Positions 27,976 through 40,866 of a stretch of DNA of 64,000 nucleotides are shown here, in pieces. The stretch comes from Bacteroidota bacterium (lineage in GTDB: Bacteria > Bacteroidota > Bacteroidia > B-17B0 > Aurantibacillaceae): assembly GCA_020403265.1 (NCBI GenBank), contig JADBXZ010000051.1:1-64000 (forward strand), read 5' to 3'. The notes under the pieces are model-generated. The model did not search any database, was not told the origin of the DNA, and was given only the letters and a program-made list of their open reading frames with translations. The position numbers were made by a program, and so were the translations under genes. Position 1 is the stretch's first letter. Every line of letters starts with the position of its first letter.

Positions 27976-27999
27976 AGAGTAAGTTTACTTTTTACCGAT

Positions 28000-28047
28000 A
28001 ACGCACAAAATTAAAAGCAGAAATGCATTTGGTTTTGTGCGTTTTTA
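28000..28047 (+). terminator. Hairpin between zapA and rny
   Basis: A perfect 11-bp stem, AACGCACAAAA (28000-28010) / TTTTGTGCGTT (28033-28043), encloses a 22-base loop and is followed by T. It probably ends or attenuates the zapA transcript before rny. Confidence 0.75.
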
Positions 28048-28065: not shown

Positions 28066-29616
28066 ATGGAAATACTAACAATTGGACTGATAGCAGGCGC
28101 ACTCATTTTAGGTGTTTTAGCCGGCTTTTTTATTGCAGGGAGTAAATTAAACGCCACAGCTACTAAAGAAAAAGAAAACATGTTAAAAGAGGTGGAAGTT
28201 AAAGCAGAAGCCACCAAACAGGAAAAAATCTTACAAGCAAAAGAGAAATTCCTGCAATTAAAATCCGAACATGAAAAAGCTGTGCAAGAAAAAAACAGCC
28301 AAATTGCCCAGCATGAAAATAAGATTAAACAAAAGGAAAGTGAATTAAACAAGAAACTGGAAGATTTAAATCGAAAAAATAAAGAAGCCGAAGAACTTAA
28401 AAATCAGGCCAGTCAGCAAATCGAAGTATACAAACACCGCACGGATGACCTTGAAAAATCGCACCGTAAACAAGTTGAAATACTTGAAAAAATTAGTGGT
28501 ATGAAAGCCGAAGATGCCAAATTACAATTGGTAGAAAGCATTAAAGGTGAAGCCAAAACGCAGGCCATGGCTTACGTGAAGGACATCATGGATGAAGCCA
28601 AATTAACTGCAAACAAAGAAGCTAAAAAAATAGTTATTCAAACCATTCAGCGTGTTGCAACGGAAGCCGCTATTGAAAATAGCATTTCTGTTTTTCACAT
28701 TGAAGGTGATGAGACCAAAGGAAGAATTATTGGTAGAGAAGGGCGAAACATCCGTGCATTAGAAGCAGCAACCGGAGTTGAAATTATTGTTGATGATACA
28801 CCGGATGCCATTACGTTAAGTTGCTTCGACTCTATCAGAAGAGAAATTTGTCGATTGGCATTACATCAATTAGTAACCGATGGTCGTATTCATCCGGCCA
28901 GGATTGAAGAGGTGGTTGAAAAAACCAAGAAAATGCTGGAAGAAGAAATCATTGAAACCGGTAAACGCACTTGTATTGATTTAGGCATCCATGGTTTACA
29001 TCCAGAATTAATACGAATGGTGGGCCGTATGAAATACCGTTCTTCTTACGGACAAAATTTATTACAACACAGTCGTGAGGTAGCAAACCTCTGTGCCATA
29101 ATGGCCAGCGAAATGGGCTTAAACCCCAAATTAGCCAAACGCGCAGGTTTATTACATGATATTGGGAAAGTACCTGATGAGGAACCAGAATTACCACACG
29201 CCTTACTTGGTATGAAATTAGCCGAGAAGTACAAAGAAAAGCCTGAAGTTTGTAATGCCATTGGTGCTCACCACGATGAAATTGAAATGACAAGTTTGTA
29301 CTCGCCAATCATTCAGGTATGTGATGCCATTAGTGGTGCAAGACCGGGCGCAAGAAGAGAAATTGCGGAACAATACATGAAACGCTTAAAAGACCTGGAA
29401 GCTTTAGCACAAAGCTACGAGGGTGTTGAAAAAACTTATGCTATTCAGGCAGGACGAGAGTTGCGTGTAATTGTGAGCAGCGACAAAGTTAACGATGGAA
29501 GAGCAGAACAATTAGCTTTTGAAATTAGCCAACGTATCCAAACAGAAATGACCTATCCCGGACAAGTAAAAGTAACGGTTATAAGAGAAGTAAGAGCGAC
29601 AGGTTACGCGAAGTAA
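28066..29616 (+). CDS. rny: Ribonuclease Y
   Basis: Membrane-anchored endoribonuclease that starts mRNA decay (516 aa, typical length). The N-terminal helix [22 protein letters not shown] anchors it in the membrane. A coiled coil covers about 25-190, and a KH domain with [21 protein letters not shown] follows. The HD hydrolase domain has the metal-binding motif [14 protein letters not shown] and GAHHDE, and the C-terminal domain ends [12 protein letters not shown]. The dispersed 64-bp repeat begins at the base after the stop codon. Confidence 0.96.
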
Positions 29617-29680
29617 TACCAATGTGAAAAAATAATTATGCCAATAATTATTTTTGCTACAGTGGTTTATACCGATTAGA
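29617..29680. repeat. Dispersed repeat, inverted copy B
   Basis: Exact reverse complement of 1-64, starting directly after the rny stop codon. Just inside it, ATACCGATTAGAAATAAG (from 29670) can pair with CTTATTTCACTTCGGTAT (ending near 29740) with three mismatches, so the copy continues as a partly folded structure. Confidence 0.92.
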
Positions 29681-29764
29681 AATAAGTTTGGCGCAATGAA
29701 GTGAAACAAAATTGGACCATTGCTTATTTCACTTCGGTATAAAAAGGTAACAAGGCAATTTGAT

Positions 29765-34951: not shown

Positions 34952-37900
34952 TTAGTATTTTATTATTTTAACTGTTTTGAAATTAGTTGCGGCTTCTTTA
35001 AAATTGACAAAATAAACACCTTCTTGAAAAGTAGATAAATCCAATTTAAAGTTATTTTCACCTTGAAGAGCATTTTGATTTTTTACCAATAACTCTCTAC
35101 CCAACAAATCCGTTACACTAATTGTTAAGTTTTGATTTTTGGTAAAAGTTGAGTTTATATTAAAAATGCCTTTACTTGGATTAGGATAAACAACTAAATC
35201 TGAAATAGGATTGTGTGTGTCATTAATGCCCATTACCCCTGTTGGATCATAGATGTAAAGTGATGCGGCAGTGTTTACAATTGAATTATCAGCCGGGTAA
35301 AATTTATTGTGAAGTGTAGAATAATGAAACCAAGTACGCATCACAACCTGACTTTGCGAAAAAGATACAATTTCACAATAATAAGGTCTATCAACCCTTA
35401 TTGTACTTGAATCTCTGTTCCCGATACATTCCTTAGTATGCGGCCAAACAGCAACCAAACTCTGTGTTGGTGATAATGAAAAATTTAAAGTAGTTGTTTG
35501 TTCATAAACTATTGTATTGTGTGTACCTTGTGGCACACCTTGTAATTGTGGCCAATTCCTTGGCACATTAACAGCAATGGGTGTAGAACTTTTTACACCT
35601 GTAGCAAAATGATTTAAATCTGCATGTTTAACAGTGTAAAAACCCTTTTTTAATTTTGAAATTGCCCTGTTAACATTAACTCTACCCCAGCCTGTCGCTT
35701 CATCATAACCAACCGTTTCAGAATAAGTTCCAGTTGTAATATCGGTGGCCGTTCTTTGTAAAATATATTCGCAATCCTCACCAGCTAAATTATCCCAAGA
35801 TGGTAAAGGTGAATTTATATAACTCATCATTAAAGCCGATGCACCTGAGACATGAGGAGTAGCGAATGAAGTTCCATCATCCTTTATGTAGGTATTTCCA
35901 ACATAAAGAGTTTTAACAAGCGAGTCAGTTCCTGGTGCGATAAAATCGATATTAGTTCCGCGGCCAGAATTGTTCGAACAGTTTGTCCCAAGTACACAAT
36001 AATTTCCATCAGTGCCTGAAGAACCAACAGCCATAACCACTTCGTCACCAATGTCTGCTGGGAAAAGTATCAATATAGCATTAAAATTTCCTTTTGCCGC
36101 GCATATTGCTGCACCGTGTTTGTTGGCAAGATTAATTTGTTCTGTTTCCGGCCAGTACAAATTAAAAGGATTATTTGCACCGCCTGTTCCAATACTAAAA
36201 TTAAGAACATTTAATCCATTACCCCCAATACTCGGACTCGTAACCTCATTAAAAACACCTTGTATAAAACTACTTGTATAACATACGCTAAATGCGCATA
36301 TTTTACAATCATGCATAGTAACACCCTGTTTGCCTATACTAGCATCGCCACCCGCTATACCGGCAATTCCAATACCATTGTTGCGCACAGCACCTATTAT
36401 GCCTGAAACAGCTGTCCCATGATTTCCCTCATCTAAGTTAGACAAGGAAGTGTTGTTTACATAATTGTAACCACCGGTTGTAACGCCTGTATAATCTGAA
36501 TGATTAAACTCAATTCCAGAATCAAAAACACCAACTTTAATATTGTTTTCGCCTGTTGTAAAAGCCCAAGCAGAATCAACATTAACATACCCATTTGGGT
36601 AGCTTGCAGATTGATTTAAACTGTGTTGCAAAACATACTCAGGATCATTACTTGCAAAAGTCCTATAAACTCTATTATAATTGGCGCTGATTATATCAGT
36701 ATATAATTTCATAAGCCTTCTTCCAATTGTATCTATACCAAGGCATTCAGGTAACTTAATCAATAATGAACTATAAACCGGCGGTAGCTTAACAGTGTCA
36801 CCCATTCTACTTATGGACAATGTATCGTTGGACGTTGCCTTATAAAAAATTTTTCTTGTCTCAATTTCCGCACTTTTGAATTGACATTTACCTCTTAAAA
36901 TAGAATCCATTTTACTGCAAGTTGAATCTTGAATAAAGTCATTTAACTTTCCAAACAAAAAGTCCTTATTATTGATTGCACCTAATTTCAATGTAGCCTT
37001 ATCAAATCGAACAATCAATTCCTTACTTTCAATCTCTTCATTTGCGTTAAGAAAAACAGGAGTTTGGTTAAAATCTTTGTATTCATATTTTACCGTTACA
37101 TTCTGGTCAATAATGCCGTTAAATGATTTTGCACTTAACACCACAAAATTACCATCCACAAGCATGTCTAGTAATTCATCTTTAAGATTACTGGACCCGT
37201 TATAAATGGCCTCTAAATTTTGAACACCATTTACATTGAATCTTAATAATGCAGCATCTTTATTACTATTTTTGGTATAGTTTGCGCCAACAAATACTTC
37301 GTTTGTGTTTTTAATTATAACTTTTATTCCTTCTGCATCACTTTGGTTAAAAACTGGTTGCTTTTTTGTTAAATATAATTGCGTTCCTGCCGTGTTATAC
37401 TTCAATAATACGAGTTCCTTGGTAAGGTTTGGTCTCGTAAAATAACCTGTTACATAAACATTTCCACTAGGATCAACAGTTACGTCATTTCCTTGATCAC
37501 TTTTTCCATAACCATCAACAATTTTCGACCATAATAAATTCATACTCGCATCATACTTAAGGAGTTGAATGTCAAAATCAATTCCATTGCTACTTGTACT
37601 ACCGGTAACGTATATGTTACCAAAGGCGTCTTTAAATTGTCCGGTAACAATATCTTTCGCATTCCCAACATTGGCCTGCCTTTGAACTTGCATTTGAGCA
37701 CCTGTATTAGAATTATATTTAACAGTTGTAAAATCCATATTGTTATTAAATGAACTAGATGAACTGCTACCACTGACAATAATATTATTTGAGTTGTCAA
37801 TACAAATACCTGTTGGTAAATCTAAACCATTGCTAAAGTTGTATCTACTTACCCATTGTTGAGTACCTGCAGAATTAAATTTGATCGTTACATAATCTAC

Positions 37901-38398
37901 TTGAGCGAATAAACCACCAAAACTTGCACCACTAACATAAACGTTATTACTTGCATCTATAACTACACTTGTGGCAACATCATAATTATTGCCCGGTCCA
38001 TTATAATACTTAACCCAAATGGGCGAACCACCTGTCGGTGCATACTTCACAACCGTTAAGTCATAACCATTCAATCCATTCACATAAGCAGCGCCTACAA
38101 CAATAATATTCCCTGCATTATCTTTAGTATTAAATGTACTAAAGGCCTTACCGGTTCCGGCAGTATGTTGTTGATTCCATTGTATAATAATGTTTCCGTT
38201 TAAGCAAGTTGTCTGCATATTGTTTTGTGTACTCGTCACTTTTTGGTTAGAGCTTACAACGTAACTGTTTGCACCAACCTTCAAAATGGGACCTAAATTA
38301 GCAGTGTCGGTATTTCCAGTTACTACTTCACTAACTTTTTGTACTAAACCGGTAGTAGTTGTTTGGCTATTTGATAACTTAATAATTGCCAATGACAT
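34952..38398 (-). CDS. T9SS-secreted subtilisin-like protease with SBBP propeller
   Basis: Secreted serine protease of 1148 residues or slightly more. Residues about 50-430 form an SBBP beta-propeller (repeats such as VVIDASNNVYVSG, VTVDPSGNVYVTG). The S8 domain has the catalytic triad in VGVFDSGIEFNH (Asp about 623), EGNHGTAVSGIIGA (His about 660) and GTSFATPHVSGASAL (Ser about 844). The type A sorting domain VYPNPSKGIFNINSTF shares its sequence with the two small downstream genes. The first ATG at 38398 gives a truncated signal peptide. One base more in an upstream A run would join it to a normal MKK start, so an indel is likely. Confidence 0.85.
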   Translation of the reverse strand: MSLAIIKLSNSQTTTTGLVQKVSEVVTGNTDTANLGPILKVGANSYVVSSNQKVTSTQNNMQTTCLNGNIIIQWNQQHTAGTGKAFSTFNTKDNAGNIIVVGAAYVNGLNGYDLTVVKYAPTGGSPIWVKYYNGPGNNYDVATSVVIDASNNVYVSGASFGGLFAQVDYVTIKFNSAGTQQWVSRYNFSNGLDLPTGICIDNSNNIIVSGSSSSSSFNNNMDFTTVKYNSNTGAQMQVQRQANVGNAKDIVTGQFKDAFGNIYVTGSTSSNGIDFDIQLLKYDASMNLLWSKIVDGYGKSDQGNDVTVDPSGNVYVTGYFTRPNLTKELVLLKYNTAGTQLYLTKKQPVFNQSDAEGIKVIIKNTNEVFVGANYTKNSNKDAALLRFNVNGVQNLEAIYNGSSNLKDELLDMLVDGNFVVLSAKSFNGIIDQNVTVKYEYKDFNQTPVFLNANEEIESKELIVRFDKATLKLGAINNKDFLFGKLNDFIQDSTCSKMDSILRGKCQFKSAEIETRKIFYKATSNDTLSISRMGDTVKLPPVYSSLLIKLPECLGIDTIGRRLMKLYTDIISANYNRVYRTFASNDPEYVLQHSLNQSASYPNGYVNVDSAWAFTTGENNIKVGVFDSGIEFNHSDYTGVTTGGYNYVNNTSLSNLDEGNHGTAVSGIIGAVRNNGIGIAGIAGGDASIGKQGVTMHDCKICAFSVCYTSSFIQGVFNEVTSPSIGGNGLNVLNFSIGTGGANNPFNLYWPETEQINLANKHGAAICAAKGNFNAILILFPADIGDEVVMAVGSSGTDGNYCVLGTNCSNNSGRGTNIDFIAPGTDSLVKTLYVGNTYIKDDGTSFATPHVSGASALMMSYINSPLPSWDNLAGEDCEYILQRTATDITTGTYSETVGYDEATGWGRVNVNRAISKLKKGFYTVKHADLNHFATGVKSSTPIAVNVPRNWPQLQGVPQGTHNTIVYEQTTTLNFSLSPTQSLVAVWPHTKECIGNRDSSTIRVDRPYYCEIVSFSQSQVVMRTWFHYSTLHNKFYPADNSIVNTAASLYIYDPTGVMGINDTHNPISDLVVYPNPSKGIFNINSTFTKNQNLTISVTDLLGRELLVKNQNALQGENNFKLDLSTFQEGVYFVNFKEAATNFKTVKIIKY

Positions 38399-38762
38399 TA
38401 AGATAAATAGAATTGTTTTTTCATCGTTTGTTGTTTTTTAAGGTTTAAATAATCTTCCCCTAAAAAAAGGGGGCGTAATTTCAAAACTACTATTCTCAGG
38501 AACAGCGACGAACCCTTAACACAGATAGTATGAAACACGCCCTTTCGGGCGTTTTCATTAACTGTTTCTGTGTTAATTCTTTTTTTGTCGCTGTTTTGAG
38601 AATTAATTTTCAGTTAGGAAAACGCATTATTTTAAAGTTGGTTTTTATTTCATTTAATATTCAAATTTTAATCAAATTTAAAACAAATTTTGAGAATTCC
38701 AAACTTAACTTAAAATTAAGGTACTTTTATTTAATAAGCGATGTTTATAAAAGTTCTAAAAA
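38399..38762. other. Intergenic region with large hairpin
   Basis: The 364 bases between two minus-strand genes hold the remains of the protease start (38399-38435), a small C/G hairpin (CCCCT at 38457 pairing with AGGGG at 38468) and the 112-bp extended hairpin described separately. The rest is AT-rich and featureless. Confidence 0.6.
38492..38603. repeat. 112-bp extended imperfect hairpin
   Basis: The sequence folds on itself in nested blocks: ATTCTCA/TGAGAAT at the base, AACAGCGAC/GTCGCTGTT, TTAACACAGA/TCTGTGTTAA, then ATGAAA with CGCCC / GGGCG and TTTCAT around a TTTC tip. Internal loops separate the blocks. It may be a structured RNA, a cruciform or a MITE-like element; the tip also resembles a terminator. 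Confidence 0.8.
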
Positions 38763-40835
38763 TCAAATCTTCACCCCAATCACACACACATCATCAACTT
38801 GCTCCAAATTTCCTTTCCATTGGTTGAAAAAATGTTTCAAGGCATTGGCCTGTTCGCTTGGCGGAGACTGGCAATTAGCAACTAATACATCGCAAAACTG
38901 TTTGTATTTTAATTTCTTACCTTTTGGTCCGCCAAATTGATCTGGATATCCATCGGTAAACAAATAAATGGTATCGCCTTTTTCAACGTCTAATTTTTGA
39001 GTAGTAAACTTTTGTATATTATCTTCTATAAAAGCACCTACCGGAAACTTATCCCCTTTTACTTCAATAATTCTGCCATCCTTTTTCAAATGATAAATAG
39101 GATTGTTGGCACCGGCAAAGCGCACTTCCCCGCTCTTTTTATTAATTGAAACTAGGGTAATATCCATCCCGTCTTGAATGGATGATTCGTTGTAACTTTG
39201 GTGTAAAGATTGGGTTAGGTATTCATTAACCGTATCGAGAATTTTACCCGGCTCGTAAATGTTTTTCTCTAACACAGCCTTATTTAATAAATTATAATTA
39301 ACGATGCTCATCAAAGCACCCGGAACGCCATGTCCGGTGCAATCAGCTGCTGCCACAAATACATATTCCTCTGTTTGCTCCAACCAATAAAAATCACCAC
39401 TTAAAATATCCTTTGGTTGGTACAACACAAACGAGTCGGGTAAAACAGTACGCCAATATTTTAAAGGTGGTAAAATAGCTTCCTGAATGCGTGTGGCGTA
39501 CTTAATACTATCGTTAATGTCTTTGTTCTTTTCCTCAACCAAATGCTTTTGCAGTTCAATGATGCTATTTTTTTCGCTAAGTAAGTTGTTTGCATGACGT
39601 TGTTTTGTAACACCCCTTACCAACAAAAATGAAACGCCAATTAAAAGCAAACAACCTCCCAAAGCTGCGTATATAATCAATTGCTTGTTGTTGGCCTCTA
39701 ATTCTTTTTTCTCCAGTTCTAATTTAGTTTTAGCCGTTTCATACTTGGTTTGCATGTCGTTTAAAGACTTAATACCTTCACGAGAATAAATACTGTCCTT
39801 AATTGTTAAGCATGAATCCTGAAAAGCAAACGATTTAGGGTAATTCCCTAATTTGTGGGCCACCTCAGCTAAATTATAATATAAATTTTCTTTTACTGCC
39901 AAATCATTTTGGTCAACATACTTTAATGCTTCATCGTAGTATTTTTCGGCGTTTACAAAATCTTTATTATTATAAGAAATATTGCCAATATTAATGTAGC
40001 AAATTGCAATAGCATTAAGTCGGTTATACTTTTTATTTATTTCAATTGCTTCAAAATAATATTTATTGGCAGTAGTATACAATTTTTTAGCTGAAAAAAC
40101 CGTACCTAAATTTGCAAGTAACACTGCTACTTCTACATCGTGTCCACGACTTCTCCGAATTTTTAAGGCTCTTTCATAATATTCAATAGCTAAATCATTA
40201 TTATTTTGATTAGAATAAATGTTTCCCAAACCTACATATGCAGCGGCAACATGGCTACTGAATCTATTCGACTTAGCTAATTCCAAAGATTTATTATAAA
40301 ACTCAATGGCTTTAGCAATATTTTTAAGTTTGTAATTAATTAACCCGATTTGAAAATAAGCCGAAGCTATAAAATTTTGATCTTGTTGCTTTTCAAAATC
40401 TTTTAAAGAAGAAAAAAACAAATCTATTGCCGTTTTATAATCGTTTGTTTTTAAATAATATTTGCCCAAGGCATAATTAGCTTTGGCAAGGTGTTGTTGC
40501 TTTTTAAATTCCTGTGATTTTAGTTTCAATTGAGATAAGGTTGTAAATGCTTTATTGAGTTGATTTAGTCTTATGGCATAAGTGCCATAATAATAAGCAG
40601 CATTCAAGTAATTTACTGTGTCGTACTCTTTTACCTCAAAATATAGTCTCTCTGCTAATTTGCTCCCCTCTATTTCATCAACATAAATAAACTCTTCTAA
40701 CATTTGCCACTGTAGAGCGATTTTACAATTCTCTGTTTTGCAATTGGAAAGTTCCTGCTTAAGAGAATCAACAGATGGCTGAGCCCAAGCCTGAGTCAGA
40801 AAAACAAAAAAAACTATGAATAACCTGTATTTCAA
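38763..40835 (-). CDS. TPR sensor with SpoIIE/PP2C phosphatase output
   Basis: Second TPR/SpoIIE phosphatase of the window (690 aa). Signal peptide KYRLFIVFFVFLTQAWAQ; TPR repeats at about 60-330 (for example FYNKSLELAKSNRFSSHVAA, NIGNISYNNKDFVNAEKYY); membrane helix at about 385-408 (AALGGCLLLIGVSFLLV); coiled linker; SpoIIE domain at about 465-690 with SGDFYWLEQ, DCTGHGVPGALMS, QDGMDITL and DGYPDQFGGPKGKK. The ORF opens at 40862, but that extension overlaps the terminator of the upstream gene; TTG 40835 is preferred because it starts the signal peptide directly. Likely a phosphatase acting on an anti-sigma-antagonist type partner, but no partner gene is nearby. Confidence 0.85.
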   Translation of the reverse strand: MKYRLFIVFFVFLTQAWAQPSVDSLKQELSNCKTENCKIALQWQMLEEFIYVDEIEGSKLAERLYFEVKEYDTVNYLNAAYYYGTYAIRLNQLNKAFTTLSQLKLKSQEFKKQQHLAKANYALGKYYLKTNDYKTAIDLFFSSLKDFEKQQDQNFIASAYFQIGLINYKLKNIAKAIEFYNKSLELAKSNRFSSHVAAAYVGLGNIYSNQNNNDLAIEYYERALKIRRSRGHDVEVAVLLANLGTVFSAKKLYTTANKYYFEAIEINKKYNRLNAIAICYINIGNISYNNKDFVNAEKYYDEALKYVDQNDLAVKENLYYNLAEVAHKLGNYPKSFAFQDSCLTIKDSIYSREGIKSLNDMQTKYETAKTKLELEKKELEANNKQLIIYAALGGCLLLIGVSFLLVRGVTKQRHANNLLSEKNSIIELQKHLVEEKNKDINDSIKYATRIQEAILPPLKYWRTVLPDSFVLYQPKDILSGDFYWLEQTEEYVFVAAADCTGHGVPGALMSIVNYNLLNKAVLEKNIYEPGKILDTVNEYLTQSLHQSYNESSIQDGMDITLVSINKKSGEVRFAGANNPIYHLKKDGRIIEVKGDKFPVGAFIEDNIQKFTTQKLDVEKGDTIYLFTDGYPDQFGGPKGKKLKYKQFCDVLVANCQSPPSEQANALKHFFNQWKGNLEQVDDVCVIGVKI

Positions 40836-40837
40836 AA

Positions 40838-40866
40838 CAAAAAAGCCGGTGCACATGTGCACCGGC
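40838..40866 (-). terminator. Terminator of the cold-shock-like gene
   Basis: A 22-base perfect palindrome at 40845-40866, with arms GCCGGTGCACA and TGTGCACCGGC, is followed on the minus strand by six T. It is the strongest hairpin in the window and lies just ahead of the SpoIIE gene start. Confidence 0.93.

Follow-up and report, generated by a model that had tools for sequence, protein, structure and literature searches.

What is the long hairpin that occupies the gap between two minus-strand genes at 38492-38603 of the window, the whole 64,000-nucleotide stretch of DNA that we analyzed? The gap is bounded by the 3' end of a gene for a TPR/SpoIIE-phosphatase protein (38763-40862, minus strand), the stop codon side of which faces the hairpin, and by the 5' end of a subtilase gene (34952..38398, minus strand), which reads as 1148 aa and carries SBBP repeats and a T9SS sorting tail by Pfam. 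The fold energy of 38480-38615 was -52.9 kcal/mol, compared with -21.5 ± 3.1 kcal/mol for shuffled sequences (z -10), and none of 200 shuffles was as low. The structure, which we call the rod, is a single unbranched hairpin of 112 nt with internal loops; DNA folding parameters gave the same rod (z -9.4), and the region is the most stable 140-nt fold of the window. The initial annotation was therefore right that a 112-bp extended hairpin with internal loops lies between two genes, but it missed the strand, the related copies and the full extent. Its limits, 38492-38603, are too narrow: the functional unit covers about 38459-38680 on the minus strand and includes, besides the rod, a U-tract and a second hairpin that is an alternative to it, together with a promoter box and a 5' motif. 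Two more strong and intergenic-looking hairpins, of the GCACAAAATTAAAAGC...GCACAAAACC type, were among the window's best folds (27990-28040 and 29601-29740), and neither matched the covariance model of the rod.

A DNA search of the element's own genome found, apart from the rod, only a partial match of 34 nt that falls within a coding region, and the rod was unmatched in a DNA search of 40 congeneric genomes, which gave only chance matches of 28-36 nt. We considered a MITE or REP sequence and found no support for it, because such elements require several similar DNA copies. Homologues of the downstream gene in other genomes (G019, locus L036; G012, L037; G008, L053) and the paralogue on G000:C64 (L066) nevertheless bear rods that equal it in size and position, although their stems are unrelated in sequence. 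One subtilase paralogue, G000:C19, has no element, so the gene family by itself cannot explain it. The upstream TPR/SpoIIE gene has orthologues in G026, G021 and G006, and none of these is followed by such a hairpin.

A first covariance model built on three rods recovered copies in many congeneric genomes. With models that all descend from these three seed rods, and with E-values from short calibrations, the element was detected in 22 of 40 genomes of the same genus (refined model, E<=0.01), in 42 of 87 genomes at the family level (1e-5), in 102 of 395 genomes and 64 of 196 genera of the class, and in 58 of 396 genomes of a phylum sample, 20 of these outside the class. Genomes hold between 0 and 8 copies. 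The own genome has three: the rod under study lies on C86, another on C64, and the third, on C24, is a weak match (E 0.003). The record JAIUNM010000002.1, a Bacteroidetes metagenome bin, is equivalent to G019. Searches of viral contigs (by exact pattern) and of plasmids (by BLAST), both insensitive tests, gave no matches.

Several copies have unusual surroundings. The 1.9 Mb genome G374 (contigs C6, C24, C36 and C10) has 8 copies, several of them within 1.3 kb of contig ends, which suggests repeats or recent duplication in the regulated regions. On G030:C58 (L128:6577-9009), a tyrosine recombinase gene adjoins an apparent tRNA region and is followed by a leader copy and cargo genes, an arrangement that reads like an integrative element carrying the leader. 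Three copies stand in tandem on G030:C1 (L129:8809-9893) with no normal-size gene between them. Two of these are near-identical in flanks and promoter, yet their base stems differ by compensated changes (CCGCTAA/TTAGCGG versus CCGCAAA/TTTGCGG), indicating that the stems evolve fast and pairwise. The triple copy prompted us to consider an integron attC site, which we rejected: there are no cassette genes between the tandem copies, and attC boxes, RYYYAAC ... GTTRRRY, are opposite in direction to the element's terminal motifs, GCGTT...AACGC.

The pairing of the rod is strongly conserved. In an alignment of 42 copies, 38 of 41 base pairs had changed on both sides with pairing retained; paired cells amounted to 90.8%, compared with 58.8% in shuffles and about 40% when partners were slid, and the covariation score was 0.82 versus 0.22. 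An earlier set of 18 copies gave the same picture. Fold and covariation together define the rod as four helices, P1-P4, and an apical stem-loop on the minus strand, and the model match spans 38488-38606. The outer helix P1 (5' strand 38597..38606, partner 38492-38498) and the helix P3 (38567..38576 with 38516-38525) each showed compensatory changes in 8 of 8 pairs. Fold and covariation also support the base helix P2 (38587..38594 with 38502-38509) and the apical stem-loop AACGCCC-GAAA-GGGCGT (38537..38553), the two arms of which we refer to as a5 and a3. The sequences of P1-P3 vary almost freely, whereas a few unpaired positions recur: the family-conserved internal loops that flank P2 (5' AA and 3' ACC, and a 3' GGG), and an apical C-GNAA-G or CACGC..GCGTG. 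The element is thus an RNA family set by structure, not by sequence. On the gene-sense strand, G-U or U-G cells numbered 179 against 43 for A-C or C-A, and although the covariance model itself tolerates G-U, so that part of the gap may be bias, the roughly fourfold excess indicates that the element folds as RNA.

The features around the rod lie outside the covariance model and were not built in by the search. Of 85 copies, 58 had a Bacteroidota-type -7 box of the form TAnnTTTG in the 160 nt upstream, with a peak 60-80 nt before the rod; the opposite strand had one in 9 copies and a control region downstream in 7. The box in the window, TAAATTTG (38673..38680, minus strand), is 66 nt upstream of the rod and falls within this peak. 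A same-strand reading frame of at least 80 aa began with ATG 15-300 nt downstream in 72 of 85 copies, at a median of 72 nt; the control for divergent gene starts gave 20 of 85, none closer than 100 nt. A U-tract was present near the downstream GC motif in 74 of 85 copies (22 expected), and the other 11 had no clear one. In the window the U-tract, TTTTTTT, follows directly after the terminator stem described below (38459..38470, minus strand; U-run 38468-38462). In one subtype (window 38457-38475, L075, L078, L079 and L100) the tract is bracketed as CCCC-TTTTTTT-GGGG, and the bracket could form a small hairpin able to mask the U-run once made. The rod is thus predicted to be transcribed from the minus strand as the 5' leader of the secreted subtilase gene.

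The initial annotation had offered a structured RNA, a folded single-strand DNA site or a MITE relic. Covariation, the excess of G-U over A-C on the gene-sense strand and the enrichment of promoter boxes and gene starts all favor the first; the G-U/A-C asymmetry weighs against the second, and the lack of any second DNA copy in the own genome or the 40 congeneric genomes against the third. Two of the checks it had proposed, covariation among homologues and a genome-wide copy search, gave compensatory changes in the one case and, in the other, nothing by DNA but further copies once structure was searched, so that the absence of both, which it had named as refuting, does not hold.

A second fold competes with the rod. 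About 13 nt past the rod end lies a GC motif, the 3' motif, and the apical 3' arm covaries with it (z -9.4 among the 47 copies of set 1, and z -8.4 among the 38 of a second, separate set). Kinship among the copies inflates such permutation z-scores somewhat, yet the negative controls remained near 0. The match reaches one base into the apical loop (45 versus 32 expected, 2/10000), and atypical apical sequences still match their motifs: GGGTGCGG/CCGCACCC in L172, GCGTGAGC/GCTCACGC in L132 and GGCGTGGC/GCCACGCC in L177. A second helix of the same hairpin, formed by the strand after the apical arm and the linker, gave z -15.9 (0/5000; negative controls 0.5 and 0.1), and covariation was absent for a third, P3' with P1' (z +0.9). 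In the window, the 5' arm of this candidate terminator hairpin is GGGCGTGTTTCATACTAT (38525..38542, minus strand), which comprises a3 and the P4' strand, and its covarying 3' arm comprises the linker and the 3' motif ATAGTAGTTTTGAAATTACGCCC (38471..38493, minus strand). The 3' half folded alone gave a long hairpin of -32.5 kcal/mol (z -4.6) that ends at the U-tract; the 5' half alone was weaker (-15.2, z -1.6), and the full rod reached -54.2. Because the apical 3' arm and the P4' strand are used by both folds, rod and terminator are mutually exclusive. Upstream of the rod, a 5' motif with an RCGTT box, AATGCGTTTT (38619..38628, minus strand), covaries both with the apical 5' arm (set 1, z -7.2; set 2, z -3.0) and with the 3' motif (set 1, z -3.2; set 2, z -5.4), suggesting that it can serve as a pairing partner in each of the two states.

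At the sequence level, then, the locus has the parts of an attenuator: a same-strand leader between promoter and gene, a hairpin with a U-tract, and an antiterminator fold that excludes it. We consider it probable, at about 0.7, that the element is a cis-acting transcription attenuator in which rod and terminator are mutually exclusive folds. Transcription would start near 38668 from a minus-strand promoter near 38675. The 5' and 3' halves would pair into the long rod (P1-P4 and the apical stem), which would act as the antiterminator and zip up as the 3' half emerges, ahead of the terminator 3' arm. Since the rod would form before that arm exists, read-through is the likely default. If the 5' half were kept away, or the rod opened, the apical 3' arm and the P4' strand could instead pair with the linker and the GC motif; the resulting hairpin of about 17 bp (38542-38471), followed by the U-run 38468-38462, would be an intrinsic terminator, and transcription would halt about 40 nt before the ATG at 38424, ahead of the gene. 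We infer that the second hairpin terminates and that the rod permits read-through. The rod is favored energetically (about -54 versus -32 and -15), so termination must have a cause that is kinetic or acts in trans. Presumably, the conserved internal loops let a trans factor or ligand pick the fold, and a factor recognizing these loops in the rod would be an activator.

Two other readings of the leader region deserve weight, and we regard both as improbable, to about the same degree. In the first, the element is an independent small RNA that has a promoter and a terminator of its own, and the next gene is separately promoted and merely a neighbor. The promoter box, the compact fold and the U-tract would suit a discrete transcript of about 165-200 nt, as would the triple copy on G030:C1 with no normal-size gene in between; yet most copies have a same-strand gene start downstream, at a median distance of 72 nt, and on the opposite strand there is none within 100 nt. 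The neighboring genes also vary, and the stem sequences are unconserved, unlike what a base-pairing small RNA needs. In the second, the leader RNA acts on translation, on mRNA stability or by processive antitermination, not through one attenuator terminator. A long, rigid rod with conserved internal loops fits such modes, and many of the downstream genes encode large exported proteins or are laterally mobile, but a dedicated, covarying second hairpin with a U-tract would be superfluous.

Far less credible is a DNA element, whether a MITE or REP, an integron attC, or a single-stranded DNA promoter or recombination site. The near-palindrome with its short terminal inverted motifs (GCGTT...AACGC), the occasional tandem copies and an integrase gene close to one copy lend it some color, but the G-U over A-C asymmetry points to strand-specific RNA folding, and the copies share no common sequence while their orientation and distance to a gene start are fixed. 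The reading that the upstream TPR/SpoIIE gene simply ends in an ordinary, if extended, terminator, which the position in the gap after its stop codon and the terminator-like hairpins called there might suggest, is equally hard to credit, for the conserved association is with the downstream gene start, the upstream orthologues lack the hairpin, and the promoter box is located upstream of the rod.

The intended start of the subtilase gene is probably the ATG at 38424. In the window (38387-38424), the frame that opens with the likely signal peptide start ATGAAAAAACAATTC closes after 8 codons, and the long frame begins 26 nt downstream. At this point the G008 homologue (L053) is intact in frame. 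The G019 orthologue is broken as well, by a frame change deeper in the gene; such breaks could reflect decay, phase variation or sequencing error. The first genes after the element are dissimilar across copies, and no shared function or pathway was found among them. They encode SBBP/T9SS and other exported proteins (the signal-peptide counts are a rough heuristic), lipoproteins, a SusC-like protein, DNA methyltransferases, restriction-type proteins, response regulators, LuxR/Cro-type HTH proteins, an ECF sigma factor, and small proteins without known function that are placed ahead of T9SS genes. In L078, L079, L100, L135:9083, L102 and L115/L143, proteins of 61-185 aa come directly after the leader and several precede T9SS genes; those tested had no significant Pfam match, and on visual inspection the C-terminal part looks like a helix-hairpin-helix or an RNA polymerase alpha-CTD-like domain. 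With respect to a metabolite riboswitch, short internal-loop motifs do recur, and the downstream genes have no common pathway. A wider proposal, which we put forward tentatively and at somewhat less than even odds, is that the element is a phylum-wide sensory RNA class in which one common trans factor or ligand, sensed through the conserved internal loops, switches rod and terminator everywhere and thereby governs a dispersed regulon made up of accessory genes, those for secreted proteins, for restriction-modification and other defense functions, and for regulators.

If the attenuator reading is true, a bistable leader in about a quarter of the sampled genomes of the class would mean that a major level of gene regulation in Bacteroidota has gone unrecognized. 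It precedes genes for exported surface proteins, restriction-modification and regulators, which a cell may have reason to silence or to switch. Since both folds are strongly predicted, the mechanism is open to direct testing by point mutation, and the conserved internal loops offer a handle for finding the factor or ligand.

How does the element compare with known systems? No Rfam 15 family matched at its gathering score, Flavo-1 and 6S-flavo included, and a scan of eight element loci with every Rfam 15 family, up to E 5, gave only weak, scattered chance matches; in the full-text literature we found no description of it. Flavo-1 (RF01705), 6S-flavo (RF01685) and Bacteroid-trp (RF01692) are structured RNAs of the same phylum (PMC2864571) that do not match the element. 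Flavo-1 is among the Bacteroidetes RNA motifs located in 5' regions, and transcriptomics of F. psychrophilum reported 64 structured 5' regions (PMC9723704), which could include members of the family. Fremin and Bhatt (2021) list the palindromic Bacteroidetes candidates HMP2_4078, HMP2_4205 and HMP2_1032, of 106-132 nt, and call two of them terminators (PMC8040213). These resemble the element in phylum, length and palindromic form, and an overlap with one of them is possible; their reported context, phage genes, TPR genes and tonB, is different, and the text of the paper describes no bistable fold. RfaH/ops, JUMPstart, LoaP and EAR leaders likewise precede long, laterally acquired or surface operons, but they work through a short DNA or RNA site, or another RNA fold, with an elongation factor. 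The closest parallels are the trp-type, T-box and riboswitch-platform attenuators, which share with the element a leader RNA before the gene, two exclusive folds and one hairpin with a U-tract. The element differs from these in several ways: no sensor domain is known for it, and the 5' regions that we inspected gave no hint of a leader peptide; its antiterminator is one 110-nt rod with freely variable helices, and the genes downstream are unrelated accessory genes. An attenuator leader is thus a known kind of regulator; what appears to be new is this particular family, together with its spread and a 3' half that is double-coded throughout, the HMP2 candidates having been compared by description.
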